Both the position numbers and the translations under genes were made by a program. The notes below the pieces were generated by a model, which saw only the letters and a program-made list of their open reading frames with translations, had not been told where the DNA came from and searched no databases. 64,000 nucleotides of DNA from contig JASHNS010000089.1 in NCBI GenBank assembly GCA_030041515.1, forward strand, positions 1 to 64,000. Reading direction: 5' to 3'. The stretch comes from Acidobacteriaceae bacterium (lineage in GTDB: Bacteria > Acidobacteriota > Terriglobia > Terriglobales > Acidobacteriaceae). Positions 11,194 through 43,778 of this stretch are shown one piece after another; the first letter of the stretch is position 1; each line of letters opens with the position of its first letter.

Positions 11194-11223
11194 TTGACGC
11201 GCAGTCCAATGGGAAGAAATACT
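11194..11223 (+). promoter_or_regulatory. Sigma-70-type promoter for riboswitch 1
   Basis: TTGACG (11194-11199), 18-base spacer, AATACT (11218-11223). The predicted start is about 10 bases downstream, just before the aptamer. The promoter closely resembles the one in front of riboswitch 2 (minus strand, 17722-17751), including bases of the spacer and the TGAANCCGAGC that follows. Confidence 0.6.
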
Positions 11224-11233
11224 GAATCCGAGC

Positions 11234-11287
11234 AGGTGTTGGAGTCCACTTCGACCGCCCCTCGCCAGAGGGGAAGATGACTCCTAC
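11234..11287 (+). ncRNA. Fluoride riboswitch 1 (U6/A38 variant)
   Basis: It matches the crcB-motif layout. P1 is GGTG (11235-11238) with CACT (11247-11250), enclosing the loop TTGGAGTC. Next comes the joining GACCG, then the P3 hairpin CCCCTC-GCCA-GAGGGG, then AAGATGACTCCT. The loop GGAGTC pairs perfectly with GACTCC as the pseudoknot. Counting from the known Thermotoga aptamer, position 6 is U and position 38 is A instead of the usual A and U. The expression platform is unclear: ACTCCT could pair with AGGGGT at 11304-11309. It precedes the MutS-like pair. Confidence 0.82.
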
Positions 11288-11397
11288 GAGTATGGAACTC
11301 GGAAGGGGTGTGCCTTGCTCTCACGAATCAGGATTGGAATGCGCCGGGGATCCTGCGCCGTCATGCCAGAATCAATTCTTCGGGTGAGGCATGGCCA

Positions 11398-13026
11398 GTG
11401 ACAGCGCCGGACCCAATGACCACGAAAGGCGCCGCGGACTCGGAACCTGCGGCTATCGCCGCTGATAGGTTTGAGAGCATCCTGTTCCCGAACCGCCAGT
11501 CTCCGGCTGAGATCGACAGCCTGCGCCAGCCAGAGTGCTTCTCTGACCTGAATCTTGATCAGGTCGTCGAGACAGCGACGGCAGGGCGCGGGGAGTACAC
11601 CCTGCAGCCGTTCTTTTTCGCCACGTCGAGAGACCCTGCCACGATTTACTATCGCCACGATGTTTTCCGGGACCTCGACAATCCGGCCGCAGGGAATTGC
11701 GTTCGAGTGTTCGCAACGGCGATGCAAGAGTTGCGCGGGCATCTGGCCCAGGCCGGGAAACATTACTACACCCTCCAGAAGCAACGGTGTTTCCTCGATG
11801 CTGTGGACGTTTACTGCAGGGCGTTGCGCAGACTGGCGGATGAACTGGCGACGACTGCGCTTCAGTCGGAGGGTTTGAACCGGCTTCGCAAATACCTGGC
11901 GGACACCTTCGCCGCTCGGGATTTCCGCGACATGGAGTCCGAAGCCGGAAAGCTCATCGATGCGCTGGGACAGGTCAGATACGCGCTCCTGATCGATGGG
12001 AAACGGATCACTGTGCGCCGCTATGAACCGGAGCCGGATTACGGCGCAGACGTGCTGGAGACCTTTGAGAAATTCAGACAGGGATCGTCGAAGGAATACC
12101 GCTTCGATTTCCGCTTCAACGCGGAGATGAACCACGTCGAGGCCGCGATCCTGGACCGGGTGGCTCGGCTGTATCCCGAGGTCTTCTCTGCGCTCGCCGA
12201 TTATTGCTCGCATCACGCAGATTTCCTGGACCCCGTGATAGCCCGATTCGACCGTGAAGTGCAGTTCTACCTGGCATGGATTGAGTACGCCCAGCGGTTC
12301 AAAGACGAAGAGCTCTCTTTCTGTTATCCCGCGGTATCGGATCAGGCCAGGGCCGTGTTCGCAAACGAAGCTTTCGACCTGGCTCTGGCAGAGAAGCTTC
12401 GTGTGGACAAGAGCAGCAAGGCCATCGTGACGAACGATTTCTCTCTGACTGGCATGGAGCGGATCATCGTCATTACAGGACCGAACCAGGGCGGCAAAAC
12501 CACGTTTGCCCGGATGTTTGGTCAACTCCATTACCTGGCGAGCCTTGGCTGTCCCGTTCCGGCAAAGGAGGCCAGCCTGTTCCTCTGGGACCGGCTGTGC
12601 ACGCATTTCGAGAAAGAAGAGAACGTCGACGATCTCACCGGAAAGCTGGAGGACGAACTGCTCAGAATTCACGGGATTCTGGAATCCGCGACTTCCGACA
12701 GCATCCTGATTATGAATGAGAGCTTCCTCTCGACCACGCTGAACGATGCGCTCTTCCTCAGCCGCAAGGTCATGGAACAGATTGTGAAACTGGACATTCT
12801 CTGCGTGTCCGTTACCTTCCTGGACGAACTGTCCTCCATGAGCAGGAGCACGGTCAGCATGGTGGCAACCGTCGACCCGATCGTTCCGTCACGGCGGACA
12901 TTCAAGGTTATCCGCAGGCCCGCGGACGGCTTGGCCTACGCCGTTGCTATTGCGGAAAAGTACCGCCTCACACATCACGACGTGAAGGCGCGAATCAGCC
13001 GAAACGCCGGGGAGGGAAGGGCGTGA
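11398..13026 (+). CDS. MutS-like ATPase A
   Basis: About 542 residues from GTG 11398, which has GAGG eight bases upstream; ATG 11416 is the alternative. The C-terminal half is a MutS-family ABC ATPase: Walker A GPNQGGKTTFARM (from about residue 361), then the Walker B region SDSILIMNESFLSTT. The middle is helical and resembles the MutS core/lever. The mismatch-binding and connector domains of true MutS are absent, so this is not a classical mismatch-repair MutS. It overlaps the next gene, a paralogue, by four bases. MutS-like genes have been reported downstream of fluoride riboswitches in other bacteria, as I recall. Confidence 0.8.
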   Translation: MTAPDPMTTKGAADSEPAAIAADRFESILFPNRQSPAEIDSLRQPECFSDLNLDQVVETATAGRGEYTLQPFFFATSRDPATIYYRHDVFRDLDNPAAGNCVRVFATAMQELRGHLAQAGKHYYTLQKQRCFLDAVDVYCRALRRLADELATTALQSEGLNRLRKYLADTFAARDFRDMESEAGKLIDALGQVRYALLIDGKRITVRRYEPEPDYGADVLETFEKFRQGSSKEYRFDFRFNAEMNHVEAAILDRVARLYPEVFSALADYCSHHADFLDPVIARFDREVQFYLAWIEYAQRFKDEELSFCYPAVSDQARAVFANEAFDLALAEKLRVDKSSKAIVTNDFSLTGMERIIVITGPNQGGKTTFARMFGQLHYLASLGCPVPAKEASLFLWDRLCTHFEKEENVDDLTGKLEDELLRIHGILESATSDSILIMNESFLSTTLNDALFLSRKVMEQIVKLDILCVSVTFLDELSSMSRSTVSMVATVDPIVPSRRTFKVIRRPADGLAYAVAIAEKYRLTHHDVKARISRNAGEGRA

Positions 13027-14585
13027 AGGCATTTCTGATGTACGTCGGCCGAGACTTCGATCCGCAGGAGCCGCTGCCTGCTAACGCGACTGATCTGATG
13101 CAGGACTTGGGATTGGAAGTGATCTTTGGCGCCATGTCCGGCGGCGATCCATTTCTTCAGGAAGTGGCGAAGAACGCAGTGCTGTCGAGCCTTGCGGAAC
13201 AGGGCGAGATCCTGTATCGGCAACAGATTCTGATCGACGCGATGGCGAATCCGGAAGTCGTGCGCGGCCTCTACGATCTGGCTGTTGAAGCCATCGAGCG
13301 GGAGAAACACATCTGGGGCTGGATGACCACAAGATATCCGAATGAATTGCTGCATCGTTCGGTTGAAGTGATGGAACTCTTCGCGGATAGGCTCTCCCGT
13401 CTCCGCCGGATTGCGGACGAGCACGGGCCACGATTTCAGTCGACGGGATTCTGCCGATTCTTCGCCATGTTGCGAACGGAGCTGGATGACGAGTACCTGC
13501 GCAGGGTTCGCGACCACCTGGCGCGGTTAGCCTTTCGCGGCGGAGTGCTGATGAGCGCCGATCTGGGCCCTGAGAACAAAGGAGTCGATTACGTTCTGCG
13601 CAAGCCGCCCGATGCGCGGGGAGGCTGGCTGGCGCGGCTTCAGGAGTGGGTCTCGCACCTGGGCGAGGAGCCGCAGGAGGCTTATACCTATGAGGTTGCG
13701 GAACGAGATGAGGCCGGATTCAACGCCTTGTCTGAACTGAAGAGCGAGGGGATTGCCCCGGTCGCCGCGGCGCTGGCGCAGTCTACGGATCACATTCTGA
13801 GCTTTTTCAAAATGCTGCGACTGGAGCTGGCCTTTTATGCCGGTTGTCTGAACCTTCGTGACCGGCTTACCGCCAAAGGTGAACCAATTTGCATCCCCAA
13901 GCCTGCCAATCTGGGTGAGACCGTGCTTTCTGGCCGCGGACTTTACGACCCGGCTCTGAGCCTGAGCATGGAAAGCCGCGTTGTTCCCAACGACGTCGAT
14001 GCCAACGGCAAGGAGTTGGTGATCATCACCGGCGCAAATCGTGGCGGCAAATCCACGCTGCTGCGCGGGCTGGGCCTGGCTCAGCTCATGATGCAATGCG
14101 GGATGTTCGTGCCGGCCGAGTCGTTCCGAGCGACCGTGTGCAGCGCTTTGTTTACTCACTTCAAGCGCGAAGAGGATTCCGGGATGAAGAGCGGCAAGTT
14201 GGACGAGGAACTTGCGAGAATGAGCGCCATCGTGGACAGGCTGACGCCGCACTGCCTGGTTGTCCTGAACGAGTCGTTCGCCTCGACCAATGAGCGGGAA
14301 GGATCGGAAATTGGTCGACAGATCGTGCGCGCTCTTCTGGCTTCGCAAATCAGGGTGTATTACGTCACCCACATGTACGACCTGGCACGCGGATTCTTTG
14401 CGGAGTGCCTCTCCAGCGCGCTGTTTCTGCGCGCCGAGCGCCTCGCCGATGGCGAGCGAACCTTCCGGTTGACGGAAGGCGAGCCGCTGCCTACGAGTTT
14501 TGGCGAAGATCTCTACCGGCTCGTTTTTGCACAGCCAACGCAAGCCGCGACTCCCGCTTCCTCGGGAGCTACGTCTGCGACATGA
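13023..14585 (+). CDS. MutS-like ATPase B
   Basis: 520 residues starting at GTG 13023, which overlaps the stop of the upstream paralogue. The N-terminal and middle parts are helical (MTTRYPNELLHRSVEVMELF). The ATPase domain has Walker A TGANRGGKSTLLRGLGLAQL (about residues 336-355), a region equivalent to Walker B (CLVVLNESFASTNEREGSEI) and a late VYYVTHMYDLARGFF segment corresponding to the D-loop/H-loop area. It lacks the mismatch-recognition domain. The two proteins probably form a heterodimer, as MutS-type ATPases need two nucleotide sites; this is inferred from the tight pairing. Confidence 0.8.
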   Translation: MKAFLMYVGRDFDPQEPLPANATDLMQDLGLEVIFGAMSGGDPFLQEVAKNAVLSSLAEQGEILYRQQILIDAMANPEVVRGLYDLAVEAIEREKHIWGWMTTRYPNELLHRSVEVMELFADRLSRLRRIADEHGPRFQSTGFCRFFAMLRTELDDEYLRRVRDHLARLAFRGGVLMSADLGPENKGVDYVLRKPPDARGGWLARLQEWVSHLGEEPQEAYTYEVAERDEAGFNALSELKSEGIAPVAAALAQSTDHILSFFKMLRLELAFYAGCLNLRDRLTAKGEPICIPKPANLGETVLSGRGLYDPALSLSMESRVVPNDVDANGKELVIITGANRGGKSTLLRGLGLAQLMMQCGMFVPAESFRATVCSALFTHFKREEDSGMKSGKLDEELARMSAIVDRLTPHCLVVLNESFASTNEREGSEIGRQIVRALLASQIRVYYVTHMYDLARGFFAECLSSALFLRAERLADGERTFRLTEGEPLPTSFGEDLYRLVFAQPTQAATPASSGATSAT

Positions 14586-16009: not shown

Positions 16010-17296
16010 TCAGGACTCCGAAAGGAAGTACCTTTCCGCCGCTTTGATCAAAGAAGCGCGGTCAAGACACGGCTGCTTATCCTTGTACCTGGCAGCCCAA
16101 ACAATTTGATTGATTAAATCTCTGGGCTGGCATCCTCGTAATTCCTGATGATGCCGGCCCCGAATCTCGGCGATCAACTCACTGAGCAAGGCTGAGTCCA
16201 CTTCCACCCCCCGTTCGTTAGCCAGCCTGCGGAAAATCTCGCAGAACTGTTCGTCGGATGCCACAGCGATTTTGATTTTGGTCTGAATCCTCCGCAGAAA
16301 GGCGGCATCGACCAGTTCCGCCGGATTCATGTTGGTGACAAAGACCACAAGCATCTCGAACGGAATCTCGATCTTCTTTCCTCCCGCCAAAGTCAGAAAA
16401 TCGATACCGCGATCCAGCGGTACCACCCATCGGTTGAGTAACTCCTCCGGAGGCGTTCGCTGCCTTCCAAAGTCATCGAGAATCAGGACGCCGTTGTTCG
16501 CTTTCATTTGAACAGGACCGACATAGAATCCGGTGCTGGAGTTGAGTTGCAGATCGAGCATCTCCCCTGTAAGCTCTCCGCCGACCAGAACAGAAGGTCT
16601 GTGGCAGCGAACCCAGCGCTCATCTTCGTTCTCCTTATTTGGAACAGCCTGCTTGTGAATCATTGCGTCAAAAACAACGATAATGTTTCCGTCGACTTCA
16701 ACGGCGTATGGTATCCACACGTCGTCCACAGAGAGCACCCGCGAAATTGTTTCAGCGATGGCCGTTTTTCCCACCCCGGCCGGTCCGTAGAGGAAGATCG
16801 AAGCCCCGGAGTTCAGTGCAGTTCCCACCTCTTCGAGGGTTTTGCTCTCGATCACAAGATGACCAAACGCTCGCACGACATCCGATTCATGTACGACGAC
16901 ATTCCGCACGCTTTGCCTGCGTGCCTGAACTACGTAGTTCCGAAGAGAGACTGGCGCCGCGCCCGCATATTGACTCCGAGCAAGCAGTTCCAGAGCTCTG
17001 GCTCTGCCAGGCGATGTCACTGCGAGGTCAGGAAGACTACCTGACATGCCGGTAACCTGACAAAACTGATCCGCTCGCATTTTTGAAATGAGCTCGTTTG
17101 TAGGCTCGATCCCGAGTTTGATGTGATGAGAAAGATCGCGCGTCGACATTGGTCCGGACAGATAGAGGATCTTTAGCGCGATATCTTCGAGAACCGTCTG
17201 CCGTATACCGAGCTCGGTCAGGGATCGTGGCTTATGTTCAGGCCCGTCAAGGGACGCGTTCGGTCGACGATCGTTAGCATCAATTGCTGTGTTCAT
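16010..17296 (-). CDS. AAA-family ATPase
   Basis: 428 residues. The N-terminal third is a winged-helix-like region (LEDIALKILYLSGPMSTRDL, SHHIKLGIEPTNELISKMRA). The ATPase core has Walker A FLYGPAGVGKTAIAETISRV (about residues 168-187), Walker B GVLILDDFGRQRTPPEELLN, sensor 1 VVFVTNMNPAELVDAAFLRR with an arginine finger pair, and a lid that ends QPRDLINQIVWAARYKDKQP. It resembles MoxR/ClpX-like remodelling ATPases without a protease partner. Its start lies inside the upstream small gene, so the two are translationally coupled under riboswitch 2. Substrate unknown; a role in remodelling fluoride-damaged proteins is a guess. Confidence 0.8.
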   Translation of the reverse strand: MNTAIDANDRRPNASLDGPEHKPRSLTELGIRQTVLEDIALKILYLSGPMSTRDLSHHIKLGIEPTNELISKMRADQFCQVTGMSGSLPDLAVTSPGRARALELLARSQYAGAAPVSLRNYVVQARRQSVRNVVVHESDVVRAFGHLVIESKTLEEVGTALNSGASIFLYGPAGVGKTAIAETISRVLSVDDVWIPYAVEVDGNIIVVFDAMIHKQAVPNKENEDERWVRCHRPSVLVGGELTGEMLDLQLNSSTGFYVGPVQMKANNGVLILDDFGRQRTPPEELLNRWVVPLDRGIDFLTLAGGKKIEIPFEMLVVFVTNMNPAELVDAAFLRRIQTKIKIAVASDEQFCEIFRRLANERGVEVDSALLSELIAEIRGRHHQELRGCQPRDLINQIVWAARYKDKQPCLDRASLIKAAERYFLSES

Positions 17297-17630
17297 ATTC
17301 GAGCAAACCTCGGAACGAGTCCCCCTGCCCCCAAGGATGGCAATCCGTCAGCGTCAGAATCGGGACAAGCACTGGGCCGATCAGTGCATTATCGAATTTC
17401 AAGTGGTGGCCGGGTTGGTGTTTGCGCACGGCCCTTGCTGTTGTCCGAATGTTCTTCACCATAGTCGCGAAAAGTCCCCGCCCGGCAATTCTTGCGGCGT
17501 CGGATGCACGGACGAGAATACTTTGAAGAGGCACGGTAGCGAGGTAGCGCTGCGGAGGATCTGGCTCCGCCACAAGAGGGTTTCGCCGATCGAGAGGGAC
17601 AATTAAGAATTTCGCGATCTGAGCAGGCAT
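17280..17630 (-). CDS. Small protein directly behind riboswitch 2
   Basis: 116 residues from ATG 17630 with GGAGGAGTC upstream. That ribosome site is exactly the strand that can pair with the aptamer, which strongly supports the start. Sequence: MPAQIAKFLIVPLDRRNPLV, RYLATVPLQSILVRASDAAR, then basic KNIRTTARAVRKHQ and a hydrophobic NALIGPVLVPILTLTD. No domain recognised. The 3' end overlaps the AAA ATPase start by 17 bases. Confidence 0.6.
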   Translation of the reverse strand: MPAQIAKFLIVPLDRRNPLVAEPDPPQRYLATVPLQSILVRASDAARIAGRGLFATMVKNIRTTARAVRKHQPGHHLKFDNALIGPVLVPILTLTDCHPWGQGDSFRGLLEYEHSN

Positions 17631-17655
17631 AGCTGACTCCTCCGAGTTCAAGCCT

Positions 17656-17712
17656 CGCAGGAGTCATTTTCCTCTCGGGAGAGAGGCGATTAAGAGTGGA
17701 CTCCAACACCCG
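17656..17712 (-). ncRNA. Fluoride riboswitch 2 (U6/A38 variant)
   Basis: Read on the minus strand: P1 GGGTG (17711-17707) with CACT (17698-17695) around the loop TTGGAGTC. Then TTAATCG, the P3 hairpin CCTCTC-CCGA-GAGAGG region, AAAATGACTCCTGC. The pseudoknot GGAGTC/GACTCC is perfect. Positions 6 and 38 are U and A. Expression platform: TGACTCC (17666-17660) is complementary to GGAGTCA (17640-17634), which contains the ribosome site of the next gene. Free aptamer strand would block translation; the ligand-bound fold would release it. Confidence 0.85.
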
Positions 17713-17721
17713 CTCGCGTTC

Positions 17722-18792: not shown

Positions 18793-18811
18793 GGGCCTGA
18801 ACATCTCGATC

Positions 18812-18861
18812 AGGTGATGGAAGCCCACCTTTAACCGCCTTCACGGCTGATGATTCCTACC
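18812..18861 (+). ncRNA. Fluoride riboswitch 3
   Basis: P1 AGGTG (18812-18816) and CACCT (18826-18830) enclose ATGGAAGCC. Then TTAACCG, the short P3 GCC-TTCAC-GGC, TGATGATTCCTACC. The canonical A6 and U38 are present. The pseudoknot is GGAA with TTCC: where other copies pair G with C at position 11/44, this one has A with U, a compensatory change. One G/A mismatch and an extra loop base are unusual. No terminator or ribosome-site pairing is obvious in the 220 bases before hyfC. Confidence 0.8.
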
Positions 18862-19081
18862 CTTATGAGGAGCCGCGCCGTGAAGAGGATCGTCCGGAAG
18901 TTTGCGCCAGACACACAATACCCCGCTTCAGATTTCCTCCCCCTTAGCCTTCAGCCAATCCAGTCGTGGTTCGGGTCGATGACCTGCCTGATCGCAGTGC
19001 GTCGATGTTGAATTGATTCGCCTCGATGAGTCCGGAAAATTTTCGTTGGAAATTGCAAAATGCTTGTTCAGGTGAGTACTG
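18862..19081 (+). other. Leader between riboswitch 3 and hyfC
   Basis: It contains a possible 48-codon reading frame (18865-19011) starting MRSRAVKRIVRKFAPDTQYP, with no proper ribosome site, overlapping the end of the aptamer. It may be chance or a leader peptide. No terminator hairpin with T run seen. Confidence 0.35.
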
Positions 19082-20041
19082 ATGCTACGGACTGTTGTGT
19101 ACAACTTGGTTCAGCTCCTGTTCATCCTCGGCTTTGCGCCTCTGTACTCCGGCGTGCTTAGCCGGTTCAAAGAGAATGTGCAGAGCAGGCGCGGCCCCAG
19201 CATCCTTCAGCCGTATCGCGACCTCTGGAAACTCTTTCACAAGGACGAGGTCATCTCCTCACAAACAACCTGGATCTTCCGCTTTACTCCGTACCTGGTT
19301 TTTGTCGTTCCCCTGTTCGTTGCCAGCCTCATACCGGTCCTGACGGACTATCCACTGGCCTTCGCCTTCATGGGCGACATGCTGGCGGCAGGTTTTTTCC
19401 TGGGACTCGGAGGCTTCTTCGCCGCGCTCGCCGCCGTTGACACTGGCAATCCTTACGGCCCCATGGGAGCAAGCCGAACGCGCATGGTAGGCTTCTTGGC
19501 TGAACCGGTTTTCATGATCGTTTTCTTCACCGTTTCTTTCGTCGCTCAGTCGACAATCCCGTACATCGTTCAGCAACAATGGGTCGCGAGTCCCGCCGCC
19601 TTCTTTTCTCCCGCGCACATCTTGTTGCTGATCGCCTTTTTCATGCTGATCCTGGCGGAAGGAGGGAAGATCCCCGTGGATAATCCGACGGGGCACTTCG
19701 AACTGGCCATGATCGACGAATCGAAGGGGCTGGAATACTCAGGGCGCGGCGCTGCGCTGATGAAGTGGGGCGGCCAGATGAAGTTTCTGGTACTCACCTG
19801 TGTTTTCCTGAACGTCCTGCTGGCGCCCTGGGGGCTGGCCAAAGACTTATTCGTCAACCACCTTTTACTGGCGATTCCTCTCACCCTTCTCAAGATTCTT
19901 CTGTTTACGGTGATTCTGGTGGTGATTGAAACCTCTCTCGCCAAGCTGCGCCTCTTCCGCATCAGCGAGTTTCTCGGAGCCGCATTCATCATCTCTGTTG
20001 CGGCCATGATTGCCAGCATCTTTTCAACTCCGGGTGTCTAG
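19082..20041 (+). CDS. hyfC: Hydrogenase-4/FHL-like membrane subunit, NuoH homologue
   Basis: 319 residues, eight or so membrane helices. It matches HyfC/HycD/NuoH: GVLSRFKENVQSRRGPSILQ and PYRDLWKLFHKDE at the N-terminus, the loop GNPYGPMGASRTRMVGFLAE, and the acidic quinone-site-like loop GKIPVDNPTGHFELAMIDES with the conserved acidic residues. In complex I and energy-converting hydrogenases this subunit anchors the peripheral arm and links redox chemistry to ion transport. It is the first gene of a seven-gene unit behind riboswitch 3. Confidence 0.88.
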   Translation: MLRTVVYNLVQLLFILGFAPLYSGVLSRFKENVQSRRGPSILQPYRDLWKLFHKDEVISSQTTWIFRFTPYLVFVVPLFVASLIPVLTDYPLAFAFMGDMLAAGFFLGLGGFFAALAAVDTGNPYGPMGASRTRMVGFLAEPVFMIVFFTVSFVAQSTIPYIVQQQWVASPAAFFSPAHILLLIAFFMLILAEGGKIPVDNPTGHFELAMIDESKGLEYSGRGAALMKWGGQMKFLVLTCVFLNVLLAPWGLAKDLFVNHLLLAIPLTLLKILLFTVILVVIETSLAKLRLFRISEFLGAAFIISVAAMIASIFSTPGV

Positions 20042-20055
20042 AAAGGACGGCAGCG

Positions 20056-33976: not shown

Positions 33977-34545
33977 GGAAACACACCCAGCTTGTTCTCT
34001 ATCAATCCATTCTGCCGGTACTCCATCAACCGGGCTGCCCCTTTTGCCGCTTGCTGAAAGATTTCCAGGCAGACCGGCTGCAGAAGCATACGCAGGGAGA
34101 GCTGCACCACCTGTGCAACTTTCATGTCTGGGGCCTTGCTGCCGTGCAGGATGCGCCGGCGGCGGCTCGGATCTTTCTGGATCTTGTCAACGAAGCGGCT
34201 CCGCTATCCAACGGTGTGCAGACCTGCGATATCTGCAGCGAAGTCGGCCGCGAAGAAGATCTGAGGATTCGGGAATTCCTGAGTTGCCTGGAGCGGGCTG
34301 AAGTGACGCAGTGGCTCCGAGCTGGCGGTACATTGTGCATTCCCCACGGCCTCAAACTTCGGTCCGGGATGCCGCCGGTGCTGGTACCGAGGATCGACAC
34401 CATCATGGAGAATTGCCGGCAGCAACTCAGCGCCGATCTCAAACATCTCCGCGACGAGTGGATGCCGGAATCGAATCGAACGGGTTGGGGTGCGGTTGGC
34501 CGCGCCGCCGAATTTCTTGTTGCCCTGCGGGGCCTGCGCCATTAA
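33973..34545 (+). CDS. Protein with two CxxC/CxxH modules
   Basis: 190 residues, ATG 33973 overlapping the crcB stop. It contains two repeats: Cys22-PF-Cys25 with Cys48-NF-His51, and Cys85-DI-Cys88 with Cys122-IP-His125. Each would make a zinc or other metal site (three Cys and one His). The same two-repeat arrangement is found at the C-terminus of dynamin-like GTPase 3 (38897-40567). It resembles DUF6062-type proteins. No enzyme motif seen. Likely a cytosolic partner of the GTPases or of the channel; this is inferred from sharing and position. Confidence 0.7.
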   Translation: MRKHTQLVLYQSILPVLHQPGCPFCRLLKDFQADRLQKHTQGELHHLCNFHVWGLAAVQDAPAAARIFLDLVNEAAPLSNGVQTCDICSEVGREEDLRIREFLSCLERAEVTQWLRAGGTLCIPHGLKLRSGMPPVLVPRIDTIMENCRQQLSADLKHLRDEWMPESNRTGWGAVGRAAEFLVALRGLRH

Positions 34546-34552
34546 GGAGAAG

Positions 34553-35322: not shown

Positions 35323-35676
35323 ATGAAAGAGCAATTTCAGGCACGCATGCTGCGAGTTCATTTCGGTGAAAGCGACAAATGGCACGGAAAACCATTGCAT
35401 GAGGCCATTGTCGCGAAATGCCAGGAACTTGGGATCGCGGGTGTCATCGTGTATCGGGGAATAGAAGGGTACGGAGCGAGCGCCCACATTCACCACGCTG
35501 GTCATTGGGGGTTTAGCAGGGATGCACCCATCATGTTGAGCATCATCGACAAGGAGGAGCAGATCGCCAGGCTGCTGCCCCATCTGGACGAAATGGTGGA
35601 CGAAGGCCTGATCGCCATGTCCGACGTTGAAGCGATTCGACTCTTCCGTCCGGAAGAGGTTCGGTCGAAAGCGTGA
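35323..35676 (+). CDS. DUF190 protein, single domain
   Basis: 117 residues: MLRVHFGESDKWHGKPLHEA, then GVIVYRGIEGYGASAHIHHA and DAPIMLSIIDKEEQIARLLP. It is closely related to the second half of the upstream double-domain protein. PII-like fold expected, likely trimeric. It starts 15 bases after the previous stop and is followed seven bases later by dynamin-like GTPase 2. Confidence 0.87.
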   Translation: MKEQFQARMLRVHFGESDKWHGKPLHEAIVAKCQELGIAGVIVYRGIEGYGASAHIHHAGHWGFSRDAPIMLSIIDKEEQIARLLPHLDEMVDEGLIAMSDVEAIRLFRPEEVRSKA

Positions 35677-35682
35677 TGACAA

Positions 35683-37437
35683 ATGCGGGAATCCACGAGC
35701 AGTCCGGCGGTGCAGGAGTACGGCAGCCACGGGGCTGATGCATCCGTGACTGTGGATGGGGCGCCTCGCCTATTGCGGCTTGCCGAGGTGGCCCGGGAAC
35801 TTGGTGCGGAACCTGTCTTTGAGGAGGCGCGTGAACTCGCGGCGCGCGTTGCCGAAGGGCGCTTTTATGTGGCCTGCATTGGTCAGTTCAAGCGGGGCAA
35901 GTCCACCCTGCTCAACGCTCTGGTCGGCCATGAAGTGGTTCCCACCGGCTTTATTCCGGTCACTGCAGTGCCTACCGTGATTCGCTTTGGCGACCAGCTT
36001 CGCGCGCGCATTCGCATGCGAGATGGCGCCTGGCGCGATGTCGACCTGCCCGACCTGAAGGACTACGTAACCGAAGAACGAAATCCAGAAAACAAAAAGG
36101 GCGTGGACGGCGCGGAGGTATTCGTCCCGAGCGCCTTGCTGTCTTCCGGCATGTGCTTTGTGGATACGCCGGGTTTGGGTTCGGTCTTCACTGGGAATAC
36201 GGCAACCACGCAGGCGTTCATTCCTCACATCGATGCGACGCTGGTGGTGGTTGGAGCCGATCCGCCGATTGCCGGCGAGGAACTGGAACTGGTGGAGGCC
36301 GTTGGCAGGCAGGTCCAGGACCTCATCCTGGTGATCAACAAGGCCGACCGCACCAGCGATGCCGAGAGAGCGGCAGCGGTCCAGTTCACGCGCGACATTC
36401 TGGAGAAGCGGCTGCATCGCCCCATGGGCGATGTCTTTCAGGTGAGTGCTGCCGACCGGATGGAAGGCCGCGGTCCGCTGCGGGATTGGGAACAACTGCT
36501 GGCAAGCTTGCATAGCCTTGTTGAGGACTCAGGCAGAAATCTCGTTCGCGTCGCCTGCGAGCGAGGCCTCCAGCGCTTAAGCGAGCAGTTGCTGGCGATG
36601 ATCGATGAGGACCGTGAGGCGCTGCAGCGGCCCATCGAGGAATCCGAGCGGCGCATTGAACTGATGAAGCAAACCATCGGCGAAGCGGAACGCTCCATGC
36701 GCGAGCTGAGCTTCCTGTTGATGGCGGAGCAGCAGCGAATTTCAGATCTCTTCGTTGCGAGGCACAGGCAGTTCTTGGGTACCTCATCGGTGATAGCCGA
36801 AAGCGAATTCGAACAGGCGCTGTCGTCCGTACCTCGCGGTTTTGGCCCGCGCTATCGGCGACGTGTGATGCATCTCGCCCAGGAGATCGCGCGCAGTCAG
36901 GTCATGCCCTGGCTCAGGCCGGAGCAGGAAGAGGGTGAGCGCCAATATCGTGCGGTGGCCCTTCGATTCGTCGGGATGGGCAACACGTTTTTGAAAACAC
37001 TGGCCGATGCCGGCCTCAGTGAACTCACGCGCATGCCCCATGCGCTCGATCCGGAGAGAGGTTTCCGGGTGCGTTCACGGTTCACGTTCGAGGACTTCAT
37101 TGGAACCGCGCAACCTCCATCGCCGCTGCGCTGGGTCGCCGACATCTTTCTGCCGATGGTCGGTGCACGCAGAATCATCACGAACGAAGCGCGGGAATTT
37201 CTGCGCCACCTTTTGGAAGTGAACTGTTCGCGTGTCCAAAACGATATTCTCAACCGCATTCAGGAGAGCCGGGACCGGCTGGAGGTCGAGATACGCAAGC
37301 TGCTGTACGAAATCAGCCGCGTTGCGGAGCAGGCCCTCGACAGGGCCCGGAAAGTCAAAGATGAGGGATCTCCGGCCGTCCAGTCTGCAGTCGAACGCCT
37401 CAATCGACTGGAACGAGAGGTGTCCTCACTTGTCTGA
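35683..37437 (+). CDS. Dynamin-like GTPase 2
   Basis: 584 residues. GTPase motifs: G1 GQFKRGKS (about 67-74), G2 FIPVTAVPTVIRFG, G3 DTPGLGS, G4 VINKADRTSDAERA. A long helical stalk follows (MKQTIGEAERSMRELSFLLM), then a hydrophobic stretch (SPLRWVADIFLPMVGARRI) that could be a membrane paddle, and a helical C-terminus (VEIRKLLYEISRVAEQALDR). It closes the riboswitch 5 unit. Dynamins of this kind often work as unequal pairs, so pairing with GTPase 1 is plausible. Confidence 0.85.
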   Translation: MRESTSSPAVQEYGSHGADASVTVDGAPRLLRLAEVARELGAEPVFEEARELAARVAEGRFYVACIGQFKRGKSTLLNALVGHEVVPTGFIPVTAVPTVIRFGDQLRARIRMRDGAWRDVDLPDLKDYVTEERNPENKKGVDGAEVFVPSALLSSGMCFVDTPGLGSVFTGNTATTQAFIPHIDATLVVVGADPPIAGEELELVEAVGRQVQDLILVINKADRTSDAERAAAVQFTRDILEKRLHRPMGDVFQVSAADRMEGRGPLRDWEQLLASLHSLVEDSGRNLVRVACERGLQRLSEQLLAMIDEDREALQRPIEESERRIELMKQTIGEAERSMRELSFLLMAEQQRISDLFVARHRQFLGTSSVIAESEFEQALSSVPRGFGPRYRRRVMHLAQEIARSQVMPWLRPEQEEGERQYRAVALRFVGMGNTFLKTLADAGLSELTRMPHALDPERGFRVRSRFTFEDFIGTAQPPSPLRWVADIFLPMVGARRIITNEAREFLRHLLEVNCSRVQNDILNRIQESRDRLEVEIRKLLYEISRVAEQALDRARKVKDEGSPAVQSAVERLNRLEREVSSLV

Positions 37438-37449: not shown

Positions 37450-37478
37450 TTGCAGGTTGTTGGTAGCTGTGCTAAACC
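37450..37478 (+). promoter_or_regulatory. Promoter for riboswitch 6
   Basis: TTGCAG (37450-37455), 17-base spacer, TAAACC (37473-37478); the aptamer starts about 7 bases later. Confidence 0.5.
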
Positions 37479-37484
37479 TTGACC

Positions 37485-37540
37485 TGGCGACGGAATCCGC
37501 CATCAACCGCCATCCGAAAGGGAATGGCTGATGACTCCTG
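37485..37540 (+). ncRNA. Fluoride riboswitch 6
   Basis: P1 TGGCG (37485-37489) and CGCCA (37498-37502), loop ACGGAATC. Then CAACCG, the P3 GCCATCC-GAAA-GGGAATGGC, TGATGACTCCTG. A6 and U38 are canonical. Pseudoknot pairs GGA..TC with GA..TCC with one A/C mismatch. It precedes inorganic pyrophosphatase, a known fluoride-sensitive enzyme, and is followed by an overlapping terminator. Confidence 0.93.
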
Positions 37541-37563
37541 CTCAGGCGCAGGAGTTTTCTTTT
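37534..37563 (+). terminator. Riboswitch-controlled intrinsic terminator
   Basis: ACTCCTGC (37534-37541) and GCAGGAGT (37548-37555) form a perfect 8-pair stem followed by TTTTCTTTT. The 5' arm is the pseudoknot strand of the aptamer, so ligand binding should prevent the terminator and allow transcription of the pyrophosphatase. Confidence 0.88.
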
Positions 37564-37593
37564 GCTCCTGTGCGACAACCGCAAAGGAGCGAA

Positions 37594-38142
37594 ATGAACG
37601 ACGACTATCTGCAACTTCCCATTGGCGACAAGGCGCCGGAGATTGTCACCGCCGTCATCGAAATTCCACAGGACAGCGTCAACAAATACGAGTACGACAA
37701 GCAGCTGAAGGTATTTCGCCTGGACAGAAATTTGCATTCTCCCATTCATTACCCCGGGGATTATGGATTCATTCCGCGCACGGTGGCGGAGGACGGAGAT
37801 CCGCTCGACATTCTCGTGCTGGGAGATGCACCAACCTTCCCTGGCTGCATCTATAAGGCCCGCGTCATCGGACTCTTCGAGATGCTCGACCAGGGGGTGC
37901 CGGATGAAAAGATTCTGGCCTATGCCACGGGCAATCCGCGATTCTCCTCGATCAGCAGCTACAGCGACGTGATGCCGCACACCCTGCGCGAGGTCGAGCA
38001 CTTCTTTTCCGTATACAAGAATCTCGAAGGGAAGCGGACTGAAGTGCTTGGCTGGAAGGATCGCGAGGCCGCTTTCGAGGCCATCCGCAGCAGTCACGAG
38101 CGCTTCCAGGCCGCGACGCCGGCCTCTTCAGGTACTCGCTGA
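37594..38142 (+). CDS. ppa: Inorganic pyrophosphatase, family I
   Basis: 182 residues from ATG 37594 (ribosome site AAAGGAG). An upstream in-frame ATG at 37531 lies inside the aptamer and terminator, so it is not the start. Signature: NKYEYDKQLKVFRLDRNLHS, HYPGDYGFIPRTVAEDGDPL and DILVLGDAP, with the Asp triad that binds magnesium. It splits pyrophosphate to phosphate in the cytoplasm; fluoride is a strong inhibitor of family I enzymes. It overlaps the next gene as TGATG. Confidence 0.94.
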   Translation: MNDDYLQLPIGDKAPEIVTAVIEIPQDSVNKYEYDKQLKVFRLDRNLHSPIHYPGDYGFIPRTVAEDGDPLDILVLGDAPTFPGCIYKARVIGLFEMLDQGVPDEKILAYATGNPRFSSISSYSDVMPHTLREVEHFFSVYKNLEGKRTEVLGWKDREAAFEAIRSSHERFQAATPASSGTR

Positions 38143-38891
38143 TGGTAAGCACGGCTCTTCAGTCACCGGATGCACAATACCTTGCCGCGGTCGATCGTAC
38201 AGAGGAACTGGCAAGGCTGCGTGCGCAGGCGCAGAAGAGAAAGTCCATGTTGGTTTTTGGCCCGGAAGGCGTTGGCAAGACCCGCTTGCTTCTTGCTTTC
38301 GTTCAAACTCAACCCTTCGCGCTGTATGTCCCGCAGATTCGTTCACCGCGGGAGTTCATGATGGCGCTCATCGAGAATATGCGCCTCCTGGACAAGCGAG
38401 GTCTCCGGCTGCCCGCGACCACGAATTCGCTTAGTGCCCGATCGCTCAAGGGAATCGTGCAGCGGGCTTTAGCTGAGTTGCCCTGCATGCTCGTGCTCGA
38501 TCATCTGGCAGGTCCTTCTCGCGTCGTTACCGGAATCGTTAAGGAGTTCAGCGACTACGGGCGCCGGCCCATCTATTTTGCCGCCCGCACCCCGCACATG
38601 GAAGACATCGGCAACCTGCAGCCCATGTGCGCCGATCGCTCGGAACGGCTGGAGATCAGGAACTTTACAGCAGCGATTGCGCTTGAATTCGCGAAGAGGG
38701 AGGCCGAGCGGAGCGGCCTGTGGGCATCAAACCTCGATTCGTCGTTGCACTCGCTTGTGGAATGGAGTGAGGGCAATCCCGGCAGCATCCTGCAGATGCT
38801 CAAAATGGCGAACTTTCCCCGGTACCGCATGGGCGATCAGATCAAAGCGCATGTACTGTACCTCGATTACCGGATGGGGCGTCGTGACTAA
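38142..38891 (+). CDS. P-loop ATPase, AAA-like
   Basis: 249 residues. Walker A FGPEGVGKTRLLLAFVQ (about 39-55), Walker B LPCMLVLDHLAG, then a sensor-like YFAARTPHMEDIG and a helical C-terminal lid (LHSLVEWSEGNPGSILQMLK). This resembles STAND/ORC-like ATPases such as the TniB/ExeA group, without a DNA-binding domain. Its start overlaps the ppa stop, so it should be co-expressed with pyrophosphatase under riboswitch 6. Function unknown. Confidence 0.7.
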   Translation: MVSTALQSPDAQYLAAVDRTEELARLRAQAQKRKSMLVFGPEGVGKTRLLLAFVQTQPFALYVPQIRSPREFMMALIENMRLLDKRGLRLPATTNSLSARSLKGIVQRALAELPCMLVLDHLAGPSRVVTGIVKEFSDYGRRPIYFAARTPHMEDIGNLQPMCADRSERLEIRNFTAAIALEFAKREAERSGLWASNLDSSLHSLVEWSEGNPGSILQMLKMANFPRYRMGDQIKAHVLYLDYRMGRRD

Positions 38892-38896: not shown

Positions 38897-40567
38897 TCAC
38901 AGGACATATTCGATTACCCATGGAGAACTCAGGTTACGGTGTCCGGCAAGCAGGAGCAGGGCAATTTGCGCCGCCCGTCGTTCCTCCTCGCTGGTGAGGT
39001 ATCGCCGCAGGGCATCGTGCTTCAGCGCGTATCGTTGCAGGTCTTCCGCAGTGCGTTCCAGCAGGGCAGCATGGGCTGCCAGGAGTTTCCGTGTCGATTC
39101 GCCTGGTCCGAGGCTTTTGGCAACCATCGCGAGATGCGGAAGGCAACAGGCGGGAAGCCGCGCGGCGCACGCCGTGGCCTGTCGCGCCAAAGCCGCAAGT
39201 TCCTCAACCGCTGCCCCCTCTGAACCAAGGCGCACCTCACATGCGGGACAGGACTGAGGCGTGGCGACCAGCTGGCGGACTCCTTCCGCATCGCCCCCTC
39301 TCGCCGCAATTTGATCAAGATATGTGGATGTGCCGTGCGCCAATGCGGGATATGCCACACATACACCGTACGGGGAAGAGATGCCTTCGTATTGCCAGGT
39401 GTGAAGCGGGCAGAAGCCATGTCTTCGGAAATGACTCTGCTGCGCCTCAGGATCGATCGTGAGCTCGTACTGATACTTGCTGAGAAATCGGAACGTCGCC
39501 TCCAGGATGACGCCGCATATATGACAGCCCGTCTTGCGGTCGATGTCGAGTTTCCACGCGTCGGCCGAGGAGTCTGTCAGCTCGACGTGTTCTGACGGCG
39601 TTCCACTTCCTGTGATGCTCTCCCGCTGACTGCGCAGGCGCTCCATGAGGGCGTTCCATGCGTGCTCGTCCGGACGCGACCACTCGGTCAGCAGGTGCAT
39701 GGTGCGCTCATACATATTCACAAGAAACAACTGTGCGCGATCTTCCGTAAGGAACTGCAGCAACTCCGTCTCGAAACCCGGAATCCCGCTCTCGTTGAGA
39801 TAGTGAAGATTCCGTGAGAGCTTCGCCTCCAGGGCTTGCCGCGCTGAAATCGAGTGAAGGGGATCGACTGCCCGTCCAAGCCTCGCGGCCAACTGTTCAG
39901 CGACGAACTGTCGAGCCTGCTCCTGCTCCGCCGCTGTGACGGTGTCCTGCTTGTTGATCACAACGAACAGTTTCTTGCCCGTGTTCCGGATTCTCTCGAG
40001 GATGCGATCTTCTTCCTCGGAGAGCGGGCTTTCGTAGCTGGTTACGAGAATGAATGCGTCGGCCTGTGGCAGAAACCGTTCGGTCGTTAGCGTGTTTTCA
40101 ATGATGGGCGAGCCCAGGCCTGGCGTATCGACAAAGAAGAACCCCCGCCGCAGGATTTCTGCGGGGAGCTGAATCTCTGCCCAGGCAATTTTCTTCACAT
40201 TTCCCGGATTGCCTTTCTGGGTTACATAATCGGCAAGTTGCACCAGCGGGATCTCGTGGTTCAGGCCGAAATCCCGGAAATGCAGCACTACCTGCGGTCT
40301 GCTTCCGTATCGGACCGTCGTGATGACGGACGTAAGTGGCACAATGCCTGTGGGCAAATAATCGCCGCCGAGAATTGCGTTCATCAGCGTCGATTTGCCC
40401 CGGCTGAAACGGCCGACTACCATCAGGTTGAACTGATCCTCCGCGAGGCGCGCCACCAATTCACGGCAATCTCCCTGCAAAACCGTGTTTTTGGTGTCAA
40501 TGGCTTGCGCCGTACGGATGATCTCCGCCAGCAGGAACTTTCGTTGCTCGTATTCCTTCAGGTCCAT
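38897..40567 (-). CDS. Dynamin-like GTPase 3 with C-terminal Cys/His modules
   Basis: 556 residues from ATG 40567; a TTG 18 bases earlier is an alternative. G1 GRFSRGKS (about 52-59), G2 PLTSVITTVRYG, G3 DTPGLGS, G4 VINKQD. After the G-domain and a short helical part, the C-terminus has two modules: Cys348-HI-Cys351 with Cys386-PL-His389, and Cys440-PA-Cys443 with Cys475-LP-His478. The same pattern makes up the 190-residue protein next to crcB. It is the last gene of the riboswitch 7 unit and ends 5 bases from the convergent ATPase gene. Confidence 0.83.
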   Translation of the reverse strand: MDLKEYEQRKFLLAEIIRTAQAIDTKNTVLQGDCRELVARLAEDQFNLMVVGRFSRGKSTLMNAILGGDYLPTGIVPLTSVITTVRYGSRPQVVLHFRDFGLNHEIPLVQLADYVTQKGNPGNVKKIAWAEIQLPAEILRRGFFFVDTPGLGSPIIENTLTTERFLPQADAFILVTSYESPLSEEEDRILERIRNTGKKLFVVINKQDTVTAAEQEQARQFVAEQLAARLGRAVDPLHSISARQALEAKLSRNLHYLNESGIPGFETELLQFLTEDRAQLFLVNMYERTMHLLTEWSRPDEHAWNALMERLRSQRESITGSGTPSEHVELTDSSADAWKLDIDRKTGCHICGVILEATFRFLSKYQYELTIDPEAQQSHFRRHGFCPLHTWQYEGISSPYGVCVAYPALAHGTSTYLDQIAARGGDAEGVRQLVATPQSCPACEVRLGSEGAAVEELAALARQATACAARLPACCLPHLAMVAKSLGPGESTRKLLAAHAALLERTAEDLQRYALKHDALRRYLTSEEERRAAQIALLLLAGHRNLSSPWVIEYVL

Positions 40568-40618
40568 GATCTTTACCGATAACAAGCTCGTTGGCGCAAC
40601 TGTGGAGTCTTATGCGGT

Positions 40619-41572
40619 TCACGAATGCGTGTCTTCCAGTTCGCCTTTCAGAATGTGTTTCAGGATCCTCCAGACAGGGCTCAGCCAGTTCGGATGCTCA
40701 CCTCGAATCTGTCGTTCACGGACGAGGCCCCTGGCTAATTCGCGAGCAATATCCCGGTGGTCATCCAACAGCCTGCCCACGTCGTCTTCCTGTGCCCAGT
40801 TCAAATGAGGTGAAACGCGAAACAGGGCTTTGGCAATGTCCCGATGGTCCTGAATCGGTGCCATCTGAAATCCGATCTGTGCCGCCGCAATCACCACATC
40901 GGCGTCTGGATCGTGCAGAAACTCACGCAAGTCGTGCCACTCTTCGGGAGTTACGCCAAACTCGCGGAGTAATTGCAGAGTAGCGCGCCGCCTGCTTAGC
41001 GCCGATAGCTCATAGAGGCCAGGCGTGACCGCTCCTCGAACTGAAAGAATCGCATACTGCCGTGCGACGTCTGGTACCTTCCGAAGAGCTTCCTTCGCTT
41101 CCTCGCGACATAGATCGTCCTCCAGCGCGGCAAAGAGCGAGGGAACGCTTTCTGGCCGGCGGAACTCGCCAAGAGCAAGGATTAACCCACTCGTAACGCG
41201 TTGCCGGGATGCGTCCAACAAGGTTCTATAAACCTCGTCGGACTTCCATCGCATTAGCTGCTGAGCTGCAACACTGCGCACGCTATCCTCGGCAAACAAT
41301 ACGGCCGCGTCTTCCGGGCGCCGGTATTGACGAAAATATGCGATCAGAATGGACCAGGCGCCCAACTCGCCAAGTGCCCGCACGGCTCTGCAGCGCGGCA
41401 GAGGGAGGCTTCTCGGCCGCCCATCGAGCAGATACTGTTCCAGGAATGGGACGCTCCCCTGTCCAATGGCAATCAGCGCTTCGGTGGCCCGATCTCCATC
41501 GACGATCAAGTCCAAAGCCTCGACCAGACCCGCGATTCGTTGTCCAGAGAGTTCCTGAGCCGAATCCGTCAT
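40619..41572 (-). CDS. HEAT-repeat protein
   Basis: 317 residues made of repeated helix pairs: RCRAVRALGELGAWSILIAY, then SVRSVAAQQLMRWKSDEVYR, LILALGEFRRPESVPSLFAA, REEAKEALRKVP. This alpha-solenoid pattern marks a protein-binding scaffold. No catalytic motif. It overlaps the upstream cfa gene by 4 bases and precedes dynamin-like GTPase 3 by about 50 bases, so it may act as an adaptor for that GTPase. Confidence 0.78.
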   Translation of the reverse strand: MTDSAQELSGQRIAGLVEALDLIVDGDRATEALIAIGQGSVPFLEQYLLDGRPRSLPLPRCRAVRALGELGAWSILIAYFRQYRRPEDAAVLFAEDSVRSVAAQQLMRWKSDEVYRTLLDASRQRVTSGLILALGEFRRPESVPSLFAALEDDLCREEAKEALRKVPDVARQYAILSVRGAVTPGLYELSALSRRRATLQLLREFGVTPEEWHDLREFLHDPDADVVIAAAQIGFQMAPIQDHRDIAKALFRVSPHLNWAQEDDVGRLLDDHRDIARELARGLVRERQIRGEHPNWLSPVWRILKHILKGELEDTHS

Positions 41573-42849
41573 ACTTCTATCCTCTTTCGGTCCGGACTTT
41601 CCGCATACCAGTCCTCTCGCGTAAGCGGCAGACCGCTGATTCCGTTATCGGGCCGGCTGAGGAGCAACTGGTAGACGGCAATGCTTCCGCGGCGAAACGC
41701 CGCCGCAGACCCCGCCATATACAGGAGCCAAATTCGATATGTCTCTGACGACACATGCCGGAGGAGATCGTTGGCATTTGCCTGCAAGGCGGCCACCCAT
41801 CTGCGCAGTGTCAGCTCGTAGTGCTCGCGAAGATTCTCGATATCGCGCACTTCGAGACCCTCAGCCTCGGCCGCTTGCATTGCCTGCGACAACGCCACTA
41901 GCTGTCCGTCGGGAAAGACATAATGATCGATGAATGAATTCTTCCGCGGAGATGAGTCGTACGCACGCGCAATACCGTGATTAAGAAACACGCCACCTGG
42001 CCTCAGCCAGCCGCGGACCGTGCGGAAATACTGTCTTAGATTCGTGAGGCCGACATGCTCGAACATTCCCACACTGGCGATTTTGTCAAATGAATGCGGT
42101 TCACGATTCAACCGGCGATAGTCGCAAAGAACCACGTCGCATCGATCACCCACTTCAGAGACGTCGATCCGTCGGCGAGCTTCCTCGTATTGCGCGCGGC
42201 TCAGAGTGATTCCGAGAGAGTTTGCGCCATAATGACGGGCAGCACAGATAGGAAGACTGCCCCAGCCACATCCAATATCCAGAAAGCGATCGCCGCGCAG
42301 CAAGCGGAGCTTGTCACAGATCAGCGCAAGTTTCTGCTCCTGGGCCAGGTCAAGCGGATCGTCACAGTTGCGAAAATAGGCGCAGGAATAGACGAGCGAC
42401 TTTCCCAGCCATGGGCGGAAGAATTCGACGGGCTGATCATAGTGATACGCGATCGCGGCGCGATCCCTGGCCAGCGAATGGTGCGGGCCGTTTACCATCC
42501 ACTGGCCAAGCCCAACTGCTGCCTGAGTGGCTTTTGCAACGATCCGACTGTGCAGATTCTCCTGGCGGTTGAGAATGTGCTCCGCCACAGAGAAGACAGA
42601 AAAGACATCGCCCTCCACATCAAGATCGCGGTGAATAAATGCTTCGCCCAAGCCGATCTCATTGGGCGATACGAGAAGGGTCTTTAGAGCCTTCTCGTTT
42701 CGCAGGACGATTGTGCATGCCGGCTCCACGCCCGGAGACGACGACCACTGCCAGCCGTCCCATAGTCGAATGGAGAAAACTGATCCGTCGTAGTATCGGA
42801 ATAAGGACGCCAGCACCCGATTTCTTTGTTCAGATGAGTCGTACATCAT
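41569..42849 (-). CDS. cfa: Cyclopropane-fatty-acyl-phospholipid synthase
   Basis: About 426 residues from ATG 42849 (GGGAG 8 bases upstream). The methyltransferase part has GDRFLDIGCGWGSLPICAAR (SAM-binding) and SFDKIASVGMFEHVGLTNLR, followed by YVFPDGQLVALSQAM and the C-terminal RRGSIAVYQLLLSR, all as in Cfa. The enzyme adds a methylene from SAM across double bonds of membrane phospholipid chains, making the membrane less permeable to protons and small acids. Located second in the unit under riboswitch 7, which links lipid change to fluoride, presumably to reduce HF entry. Confidence 0.88.
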   Translation of the reverse strand: MMYDSSEQRNRVLASLFRYYDGSVFSIRLWDGWQWSSSPGVEPACTIVLRNEKALKTLLVSPNEIGLGEAFIHRDLDVEGDVFSVFSVAEHILNRQENLHSRIVAKATQAAVGLGQWMVNGPHHSLARDRAAIAYHYDQPVEFFRPWLGKSLVYSCAYFRNCDDPLDLAQEQKLALICDKLRLLRGDRFLDIGCGWGSLPICAARHYGANSLGITLSRAQYEEARRRIDVSEVGDRCDVVLCDYRRLNREPHSFDKIASVGMFEHVGLTNLRQYFRTVRGWLRPGGVFLNHGIARAYDSSPRKNSFIDHYVFPDGQLVALSQAMQAAEAEGLEVRDIENLREHYELTLRRWVAALQANANDLLRHVSSETYRIWLLYMAGSAAAFRRGSIAVYQLLLSRPDNGISGLPLTREDWYAESPDRKRIEV

Positions 42850-42872
42850 CGCTTTCGCTCCCGGCAGAGAGA

Positions 42873-43610
42873 TCAATTCTTAACGGCACTGTGCTCGGAC
42901 GCCGACGCCCGCGGCGATGGAATCTCTCCGGTGCGAAGCACCGCAATCAAAGCGTCCTTATCCTCGTCGACAATTGGCATGCTACGAATGTCGCGGATGG
43001 TCTCTTCCAGGGGATATTCGTATTCCTTCAGGGAAACGACTCCTTCCTCCCAGACCGCATAACAAGCCAGGGGTCGTCCCGTCTTGGGCTGACCAAGGCT
43101 GCCGGGATTCACGATCGTGGTGTCGCCTATTACACGGACAAAAGGCGTATGCGTGTGTCCGACAACCAGGACATCAGCCTGGATGCCATCGACCTCCCAA
43201 TTCCATTGATCGGAGTCCTTCGCGCAGTATCCAAAAAGAGGGTTCGTTGGCGTTGCGTGAACAACGTAAAAGTGCGTGGAAGCTACCTTTATCTGGCGGC
43301 ACACTGGAAGCGTCCGGAGGAACTCGAGGTCCTCCGATGAACAGACTTGTTGTGTAAAGCGCAGCGTTTCGGCGGCCAGTCGACGAAACGCCGGGGAACA
43401 CTGGGGATCTGCGGAAGAACCTGCGGCGTAATCGTGATTTCCGCAAACGCTGAGATCAACGCGATTGCGAATCTCCTGGATAACCTCATGCGGTTTCGGA
43501 CCGTAGTCGACGAGATCCCCCACACACCAGAGAGCGTCATAGGAGGTTTCGGGGAACGCATTCAATGCCGCCAGATTTGCGTGAACGTCGGAAATGATGG
43601 CGATCTTCAT
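42873..43610 (-). CDS. Calcineurin-like metallophosphoesterase
   Basis: 245 residues from ATG 43610. Motifs in order: MKIAIISDVHANLAALNAF (DxH), CVGDLVDYGPKP (GDxxDYG), VCGNHDYAAG (GNHD), VVGHTHTPF and NPGSLGQPKTGRP. This is the YfcE/MJ0936-like type that binds two metals and splits small phosphodiesters. The substrate is unknown. The frame extends 16 codons further upstream but without a ribosome site. It is the first gene after riboswitch 7. Confidence 0.82.
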   Translation of the reverse strand: MKIAIISDVHANLAALNAFPETSYDALWCVGDLVDYGPKPHEVIQEIRNRVDLSVCGNHDYAAGSSADPQCSPAFRRLAAETLRFTQQVCSSEDLEFLRTLPVCRQIKVASTHFYVVHATPTNPLFGYCAKDSDQWNWEVDGIQADVLVVGHTHTPFVRVIGDTTIVNPGSLGQPKTGRPLACYAVWEEGVVSLKEYEYPLEETIRDIRSMPIVDEDKDALIAVLRTGEIPSPRASASEHSAVKN

Positions 43611-43709
43611 AGCCCGAGGTTGACTGCGGCGGAGAGGAGCCGCAGTCCCTTTCTTCAAAGTTTTCGCCGAAGACTCCTGCAGGGCGGGAGACTCCCCGAC
43701 GAAGGATCG

Positions 43710-43778
43710 TCAGGGGTCATCATCCGTCCGTCCGCACAGATAAGGAAGGAACAGCGGTTAAGGCGAACCCCTTCGCCT
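43710..43778 (-). ncRNA. Fluoride riboswitch 7, covarying GGGG/CCCC pseudoknot
   Basis: Read on the minus strand: P1 AGGCG (43778-43774) and CGCCT (43765-43761), loop AAGGGGTT. Then TTAACCG, a loose P3 (CTGTTCC with GGACGG), ATGATGACCCCTG. A6 and U38 are present. The pseudoknot here is GGGGTT with GACCCC, in place of GGAGTT with GACTCC, which is a strong covariation. Position 7 is A. Downstream, CCCCTGACGA and TCGTCGGGG (43716-43694) can form a competing hairpin using the pseudoknot strand; no clear T run follows. Confidence 0.88.

Follow-up and report, generated by a model that had tools for sequence, protein, structure and literature searches.

Fluoride riboswitches of the crcB motif (Rfam RF01734) have a P1 stem, a pseudoknot, a P2/P3 hairpin, an AUGA strand and U48. 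In an excerpt of PMC13273304 the covarying regions of RF01734 lie in P1, the pseudoknot and P3, and translational fluoride riboswitches are placed in P. syringae and B. pseudomallei. The crcB switch of Bacillus cereus is transcriptional, with a terminator competing with the pseudoknot (portions of PMC10687018 and PMC8752731), and the pseudoknot helix is an added element for the fluoride class in the part of PMC7657543 available. The same portion of PMC8752731 has crcB, enolase and a formate-hydrogenlyase-like complex among the known targets, and that of PMC10687018 describes a contact, A10-U38 in the Bacillus cereus RNA, that is a reversed Watson-Crick pair, most likely forms with fluoride, and is distinct from the A40-U48 linchpin. 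Here we consider a stretch of 64,000 nucleotides from an Acidobacteriaceae bacterium (the window; positions 1 to 64,000 of contig JASHNS010000089.1, assembly GCA_030041515.1), where seven aptamers share the RF01734 elements, while in three of them the equivalent pair, 6-38, is inverted and the score is below the Rfam cut-off. The inverted-pair subtype and its gene partition are new, judged against the literature searched.

The whole 4.77-Mb assembly, 99.93% complete, was searched with RF01734, whose gathering score is 34 bits. A first-pass annotation had folded seven aptamers by eye, and every one is matched at the site and on the strand it gave (Table 1; sites are named below by their first coordinate). 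The Infernal comparison that it proposed came out divided, in that three of the seven pass the gathering score and four, so most of them, do not, the latter being the first half of the outcome that it had named as refuting. Genome-wide expectation values (E) are at most 5.9e-4 for all seven, those of the four low scorers running from 2.6e-6 to 5.9e-4; apart from these seven the genome has no RF01734 match below E 0.1, the best remaining one having E 0.2. P1, the pseudoknot, the joining strand and P2 are present in all seven in the RF01734 alignments and a pattern scan, as is, by sight, the linchpin AUGA...CCU strand. Under uniform placement, the probability of seven sites falling within a 32.6-kb span of 4.77 Mb is ~7e-13.

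The seven had been treated as one kind; there are two. By pattern scan, positions 6 and 38 (numbered after the Thermotoga structure) are A and U in four aptamers and U and A in 11226, 17651 and 31402, sites called variant for this departure from A6-U38, the pairing itself being kept. In relatives the pair swaps among A-U, U-A and G-C. With both positions open, 300 genomes of the family yielded 122 matches: 65 A-U, 48 U-A, 4 G-C and 5 others that by eye are without the joining strand and look like chance. U-A aptamers come from 38 genomes and 17 genera, G-C aptamers from 4 genomes and 2 genera. Taken over 118 distinct strings, positions 6 and 38 have a mutual information of 1.21 bits; 2000 shuffles, which ignore relatedness, never exceed 0.19. 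Fetched loci, again with 6 and 38 unconstrained, supplied 130 distinct candidates (108 A-U, 18 U-A, 1 A-C and 3 apparently false). When column pairs were tested in 184 distinct in-frame candidates, 6-38 came first by corrected mutual information, ahead of a P1 pair, relatedness once more being ignored; the credible members are 136 A-U, 40 U-A, 4 G-C and 1 A-C, and the 3 false rows are L029, L068 and L100 (two C-G, one G-C). U48, which the pattern leaves free, is kept by all 115 related aptamers, 46 of 46 of the subtype included; A40 is fixed by the pattern. A tertiary contact next to the fluoride site, previously known from structure and probing, here gains support from covariation in natural sequences. 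A further compensation, C22-G39 to U22-A39, suggested by two window aptamers, fails: C22 with A39 is found 13 times and U22 with A39 4 times in the A-U and U-A rows.

A covariance model built from 46 U-A aptamers, the window's three subtype sites being among its training sequences, gives those three 62.8 (31402), 58.6 (11226) and 57.7 bits (17651), and the four canonical window sites 18-31.6 bits; over the whole genome, with matches taken up to E 1, it recovers all of the seven but 43704 and nothing further. As to wider distribution, 78 of the 80 loci listed, out of at least 116 subtype stretches, bear titles that belong to Acidobacteriota. Two apparent occurrences in other phyla were set aside: L196 (Arcobacter by title, 66% GC) is probably a misfiled record, and L198 (Blautia by title) lacks the joining strand and is put down to chance. 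In a phylum sample of 396 genomes, 7 of 14 pattern matches, in 5 genomes, are aptamers by scan, with two outside the family (G429 and G519). A subtype present in 17 genera of a single family escapes the Rfam threshold, and Acidobacteriota fluoride regulons are therefore probably under-counted.

The U-A subtype keeps different gene company. The comparison uses the open-pattern aptamers of the 300 family genomes, grouped by letters 6 and 38 only; it has 115 stretches to the 117 credible rows above, the two missing being U-A (46, not 48) and probably collapsed as identical. The window's own canonical four are not sampled, because the pattern requires U7 and a single pseudoknot sequence. Genes were labelled by BLAST against the window's proteins and a further nine, of which the CLC, Na/H-exchanger and universal-stress-protein (Usp) references were Pfam-confirmed and the other six assigned by eye. 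After U-A aptamers (n=46) the first recognised gene is dynamin-like in 30, MutS-like in 10, CrcB in 5 and the window's small protein in 1; after A-U aptamers (n=65, six units without a recognised first gene being kept in the denominator) it is CrcB in 38, CLC in 9, DUF190 in 9, dynamin in 2 and cyclopropane synthase in 1; after the four G-C aptamers it is CrcB in all. Dynamin or MutS thus stands first in 40 of 46 as against 2 of 65 (Fisher p 2.7e-21, relatedness ignored). A broader set of 232 aptamers (236 before four false candidates were removed), many fetched for being U-A, has the same tendency, with 55 dynamin and 18 MutS first among 93 U-A, and 9 and 3 among 134 A-U. Among the downstream genes listed, 18 of the 46 U-A units have CrcB and 23 have CrcB or DUF190. 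The open literature searched (fluoride, riboswitch and dynamin) yielded no dynamin-like target of a fluoride riboswitch, and a MutS with such a switch was likewise not found in it; the association would make dynamin-like GTPases part of fluoride biology. When genes resembling those of the window are set aside, the groups best represented after canonical aptamers are Na/H exchangers (12, two of them behind U-A aptamers) and universal stress proteins (5), as in L221, L154 and others, each family being confirmed on one member.

How might the leaders act? Hairpins with z scores of -3.3 to -4.3 in a shuffle test follow five of the seven sites. In two subtype leaders, 17651 and 31402, the ribosome-binding site is predicted to be hidden by pairing with the pseudoknot strand: AUGACUCCU is that strand in 31402, and its partner AGGAGUCAU extends into the dynamin start codon. 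The layout is kept in relatives, AGGAGUYAUG following 17 of the 26 U-A aptamers that precede this dynamin type (the window's included) and none of the 65 A-U leaders. Control predicted at translation, not termination, is shared with the P. syringae and B. pseudomallei switches (in the excerpt of PMC13273304); the difference is that the masking strand here is the complement of the pseudoknot strand and, in those 17 leaders, runs into the start codon. The pyrophosphatase leader at 37477 looks like an intrinsic terminator of the Bacillus cereus kind, though one of seven in a 33-kb stretch. Without fluoride, then, the 3' pseudoknot strand would pair with a downstream complement, hiding the ribosome-binding site at 17651 and 31402 and forming a terminator at 37477. 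Fluoride with Mg2+ would lock the pseudoknot and free the complement in both subtypes, and so, by analogy with the known class, masking would be lifted. Once on, the units might provide export through CrcB, additional enolase and pyrophosphatase, handling of ions or protons by the Hyf-like complex, membrane upkeep by dynamins and cyclopropane synthase, and MutS-like ATPases.

Two open reading frames (ORFs) lie between aptamers and their genes. One, possibly a leader ORF (18880-19011, +), follows the 18804 aptamer and precedes the Hyf-like operon; it has a GTG start and 43 codons ending VRRC-stop, and its ribosome-binding site could pair with the pseudoknot strand. Its 43 residues and VRRC end recur in L093, L091, L180 and L085, with only a modest third-position excess of changes, and it may be an attenuating leader peptide. 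The other (29899-30084, +; 61 codons), between the 29800 aptamer and enolase, has its ribosome-binding site inside the anti-pseudoknot hairpin; it is not claimed as a protein, only about its first 25 codons resembling relatives.

The single island-wide regulon of the first-pass annotation holds in that all aptamers below E 0.1, the only CrcB and the three strong dynamins are in this stretch, though not in its being served by one kind of aptamer. That one regulon is confined to the island is well supported by sequence, and a response of all seven aptamers to fluoride or hydrogen fluoride is what we infer. Because the genome's only CrcB is in a unit behind the subtype, fluoride is the likely ligand there too, and the subtype probably still senses it. 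On these sequence grounds we consider it rather likely that seven aptamers, four A6-U38 and three U6-A38, turn on seven gene units as fluoride increases. Several points weigh against this. There are the four scores below the gathering cut-off; 43704 is missed by the subtype model in the whole-genome search; the hairpins after 29800 (z -3.67) and 43704 (z -3.34) are strong but have no U tract, and those after 11226 (z -1.36) and 18804 (z +0.22) are no better than shuffles. Further, an A6-C38 row (L043) and two G6-U38 rows (L136 and L189) break or weaken the pairing rule. If the four low-scoring sites had arisen by chance or by decay of former aptamers, they would be expected to fall short of the gathering score, as they do, but the genome-wide E-values with their gap to E 0.2, the compensated 6-38 changes in 38 genomes of 17 genera and a leader layout kept in relatives make this hardly credible, and decay as the source of the low scores is rejected on those E-values and compensated changes. 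Other riboswitch classes have changed specificity through alterations close to the binding site, and this, with the differing gene company, could be taken to mean that the U6-A38 subtype senses a ligand other than fluoride; with the genome's only CrcB in a subtype unit, CrcB listed downstream in 18 of 46 subtype units and U48 kept in 46 of 46, such a change of ligand is improbable.

What the two forms are for is a separate matter from whether both sense fluoride. It is a doubtful, if attractive, proposal that Acidobacteriota have a two-tier regulon in which exporters and spare enzymes are under A6-U38 aptamers and a distinct U6-A38 subtype, tuned to another fluoride level or speed, controls dynamin membrane repair and MutS-like ATPases, both tiers being packed into fluoride islands. 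Its main rival, which is compatible with fluoride switching of all seven units, takes the inverted pair to be functionally neutral: an old leader family, inherited with dynamin and MutS units, would respond as the canonical one does, and the partition would be history, not tuning. The pair type is as in the portion of PMC10687018 cited, and in some genomes CrcB is preceded by U-A as well as A-U forms, both of which suit neutrality; the strength of the association (40 of 46 to 2 of 65, relatedness ignored) across two unrelated gene kinds does not, and we regard this rival as evenly poised. There is now a sharp and testable question: does inverting one base pair retune an ion-sensing RNA?

The first-pass annotation made too much of the rarity of seven aptamers in one stretch. 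With strict filters 262 of the 300 family genomes have a match and 18 have at least five, and searches of greater sensitivity, made in 39 and in 8 of the 300, found up to 21 (G266), 20 (G279) and 18 (G210). Clustering, judged outside the most fragmented assemblies and seen in three genomes with long contigs, reaches 17 of 18 aptamers in 60.4 kb in G210, 12 of 15 in 55.5 kb in G169 and 6 of 8 in 32.4 kb in G088; fluoride islands therefore recur in the family. Some aptamers stand head-to-head, one per strand, within ~300 bases (G138:C108, G114:C28, G114:C134, G062:C97 and G097:C99), and G6-C38 aptamers (L170, 2649-2700; L192, 4091-4139) face U6-A38 aptamers head-to-head, so that unlike 6-38 pairs share one promoter region.

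Table 1. Aptamers, predicted leader hairpins and genes in the window
Feature	Position	Strand	Support
Canonical A6-U38 aptamer before Hyf-like complex	18804-18866	+	RF01734 52.6 bits, over gathering score
Canonical A6-U38 aptamer before pyrophosphatase	37477-37547	+	RF01734 46.6 bits, over gathering score
Canonical A6-U38 aptamer before enolase	29800-29880	+	RF01734 37.6 bits, over gathering score
Canonical A6-U38 aptamer with A7 and G9-C pseudoknot variation, before phosphoesterase unit	43704-43786	-	RF01734 30.7 bits, genome E 2.6e-6
U6-A38 subtype aptamer before dynamin-CrcB unit	31402-31461	+	RF01734 28.1 bits, genome E 1.8e-5
U6-A38 subtype aptamer before MutS-like pair	11226-11293	+	RF01734 26.2 bits, genome E 7.9e-5
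U6-A38 subtype aptamer before small protein and AAA ATPase	17651-17719	-	RF01734 23.5 bits, genome E 5.9e-4
Predicted masking hairpin, AUGACUCCU pairing with AGGAGUCAU, covering ribosome-binding site and part of AUG 31480	31445-31482	+	-19.5 kcal/mol, z -4.06, 0/200 shuffles as good
Predicted masking hairpin, pseudoknot strand pairing with AGGAGUC just before AUG 17630	17628-17665	-	-22.5 kcal/mol, z -4.27, 0/200 shuffles as good
Predicted intrinsic terminator sharing pseudoknot strand, then UUUUCUUUU (U-rich run)	37533-37564	+	-16.9 kcal/mol, z -3.48
Two MutS-like ATPase genes	11308-13026, 13023-14585	+	MutS_V in both
Small protein (likely AUG 17630)	17280-17651 (ORF)	-	
AAA ATPase	16010-17296	-	AAA matches below curated cut-off
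Seven-gene complex-I/Hyf-like membrane complex	19082-28978	+	NADHdh, Proton_antipo_M, Complex1_49kDa, Oxidored_q6
Enolase, extra copy	30090-31394	+	TIGR01060 614.8 bits
Dynamin-like GTPase	31480-33576	+	Dynamin_N
CrcB	33599-33976	+	CRCB
DUF190 proteins, between CrcB and second dynamin-like GTPase	34490-35308, 35323-35676	+	DUF190
Dynamin-like GTPase	35683-37437	+	Dynamin_N
Pyrophosphatase (likely start 37594)	37594-38142	+	Pyrophosphatase
Small ATPase	38142-38891	+	ATPase_2
Phosphoesterase	42873-43658	-	Metallophos_2
Cyclopropane synthase	41569-42876	-	CMAS
HEAT protein	40619-41572	-	HEAT_2
Dynamin-like GTPase	38897-40585	-	Dynamin_N

The seven gene units are much as first described, save that the 'hydrogenase-like' complex has a large subunit whose 14 cysteines do not, by eye, include the cysteine pairs of a nickel-iron (NiFe) centre. 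Its subunit set resembles HyfB, E, F, G, I and NuoH of Hydrogenase-4 and complex-I-like complexes, from which the missing NiFe motifs and NCBIfam scores below cut-offs set it apart. The sole CrcB of the genome, in the 31402 unit, scores 104.1 bits with TIGR00494 (cut-off 80.45). One more full enolase is on contig C119 (429 bits), two further pyrophosphatases lie elsewhere in the genome, and the three strong dynamin matches are all in the island, a weak fourth being elsewhere. From these protein families the units may be read as export, spare fluoride-sensitive enzymes and membrane upkeep. For the small protein and AAA ATPase unit, IetA matches are weak and partial, and antiphage models likewise gave weak partial matches only. 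The start of the first MutS-like gene is ambiguous: at 11290-11400 (+) there is a TTG where relatives have the MutS ATG, out of frame with the long ORF, which points either to a shifted reading frame or to a short leader ORF. The island's right edge (43890-44782, +) carries Gp49-like (HigB-like) and HTH_37 genes, probably a toxin-antitoxin pair, and beyond them, at 44786-44875 (-), is a long hairpin, almost perfectly paired (falsely matched to mir-1258, at a score under its cut-off), possibly a terminator or the remnant of a mobile element.

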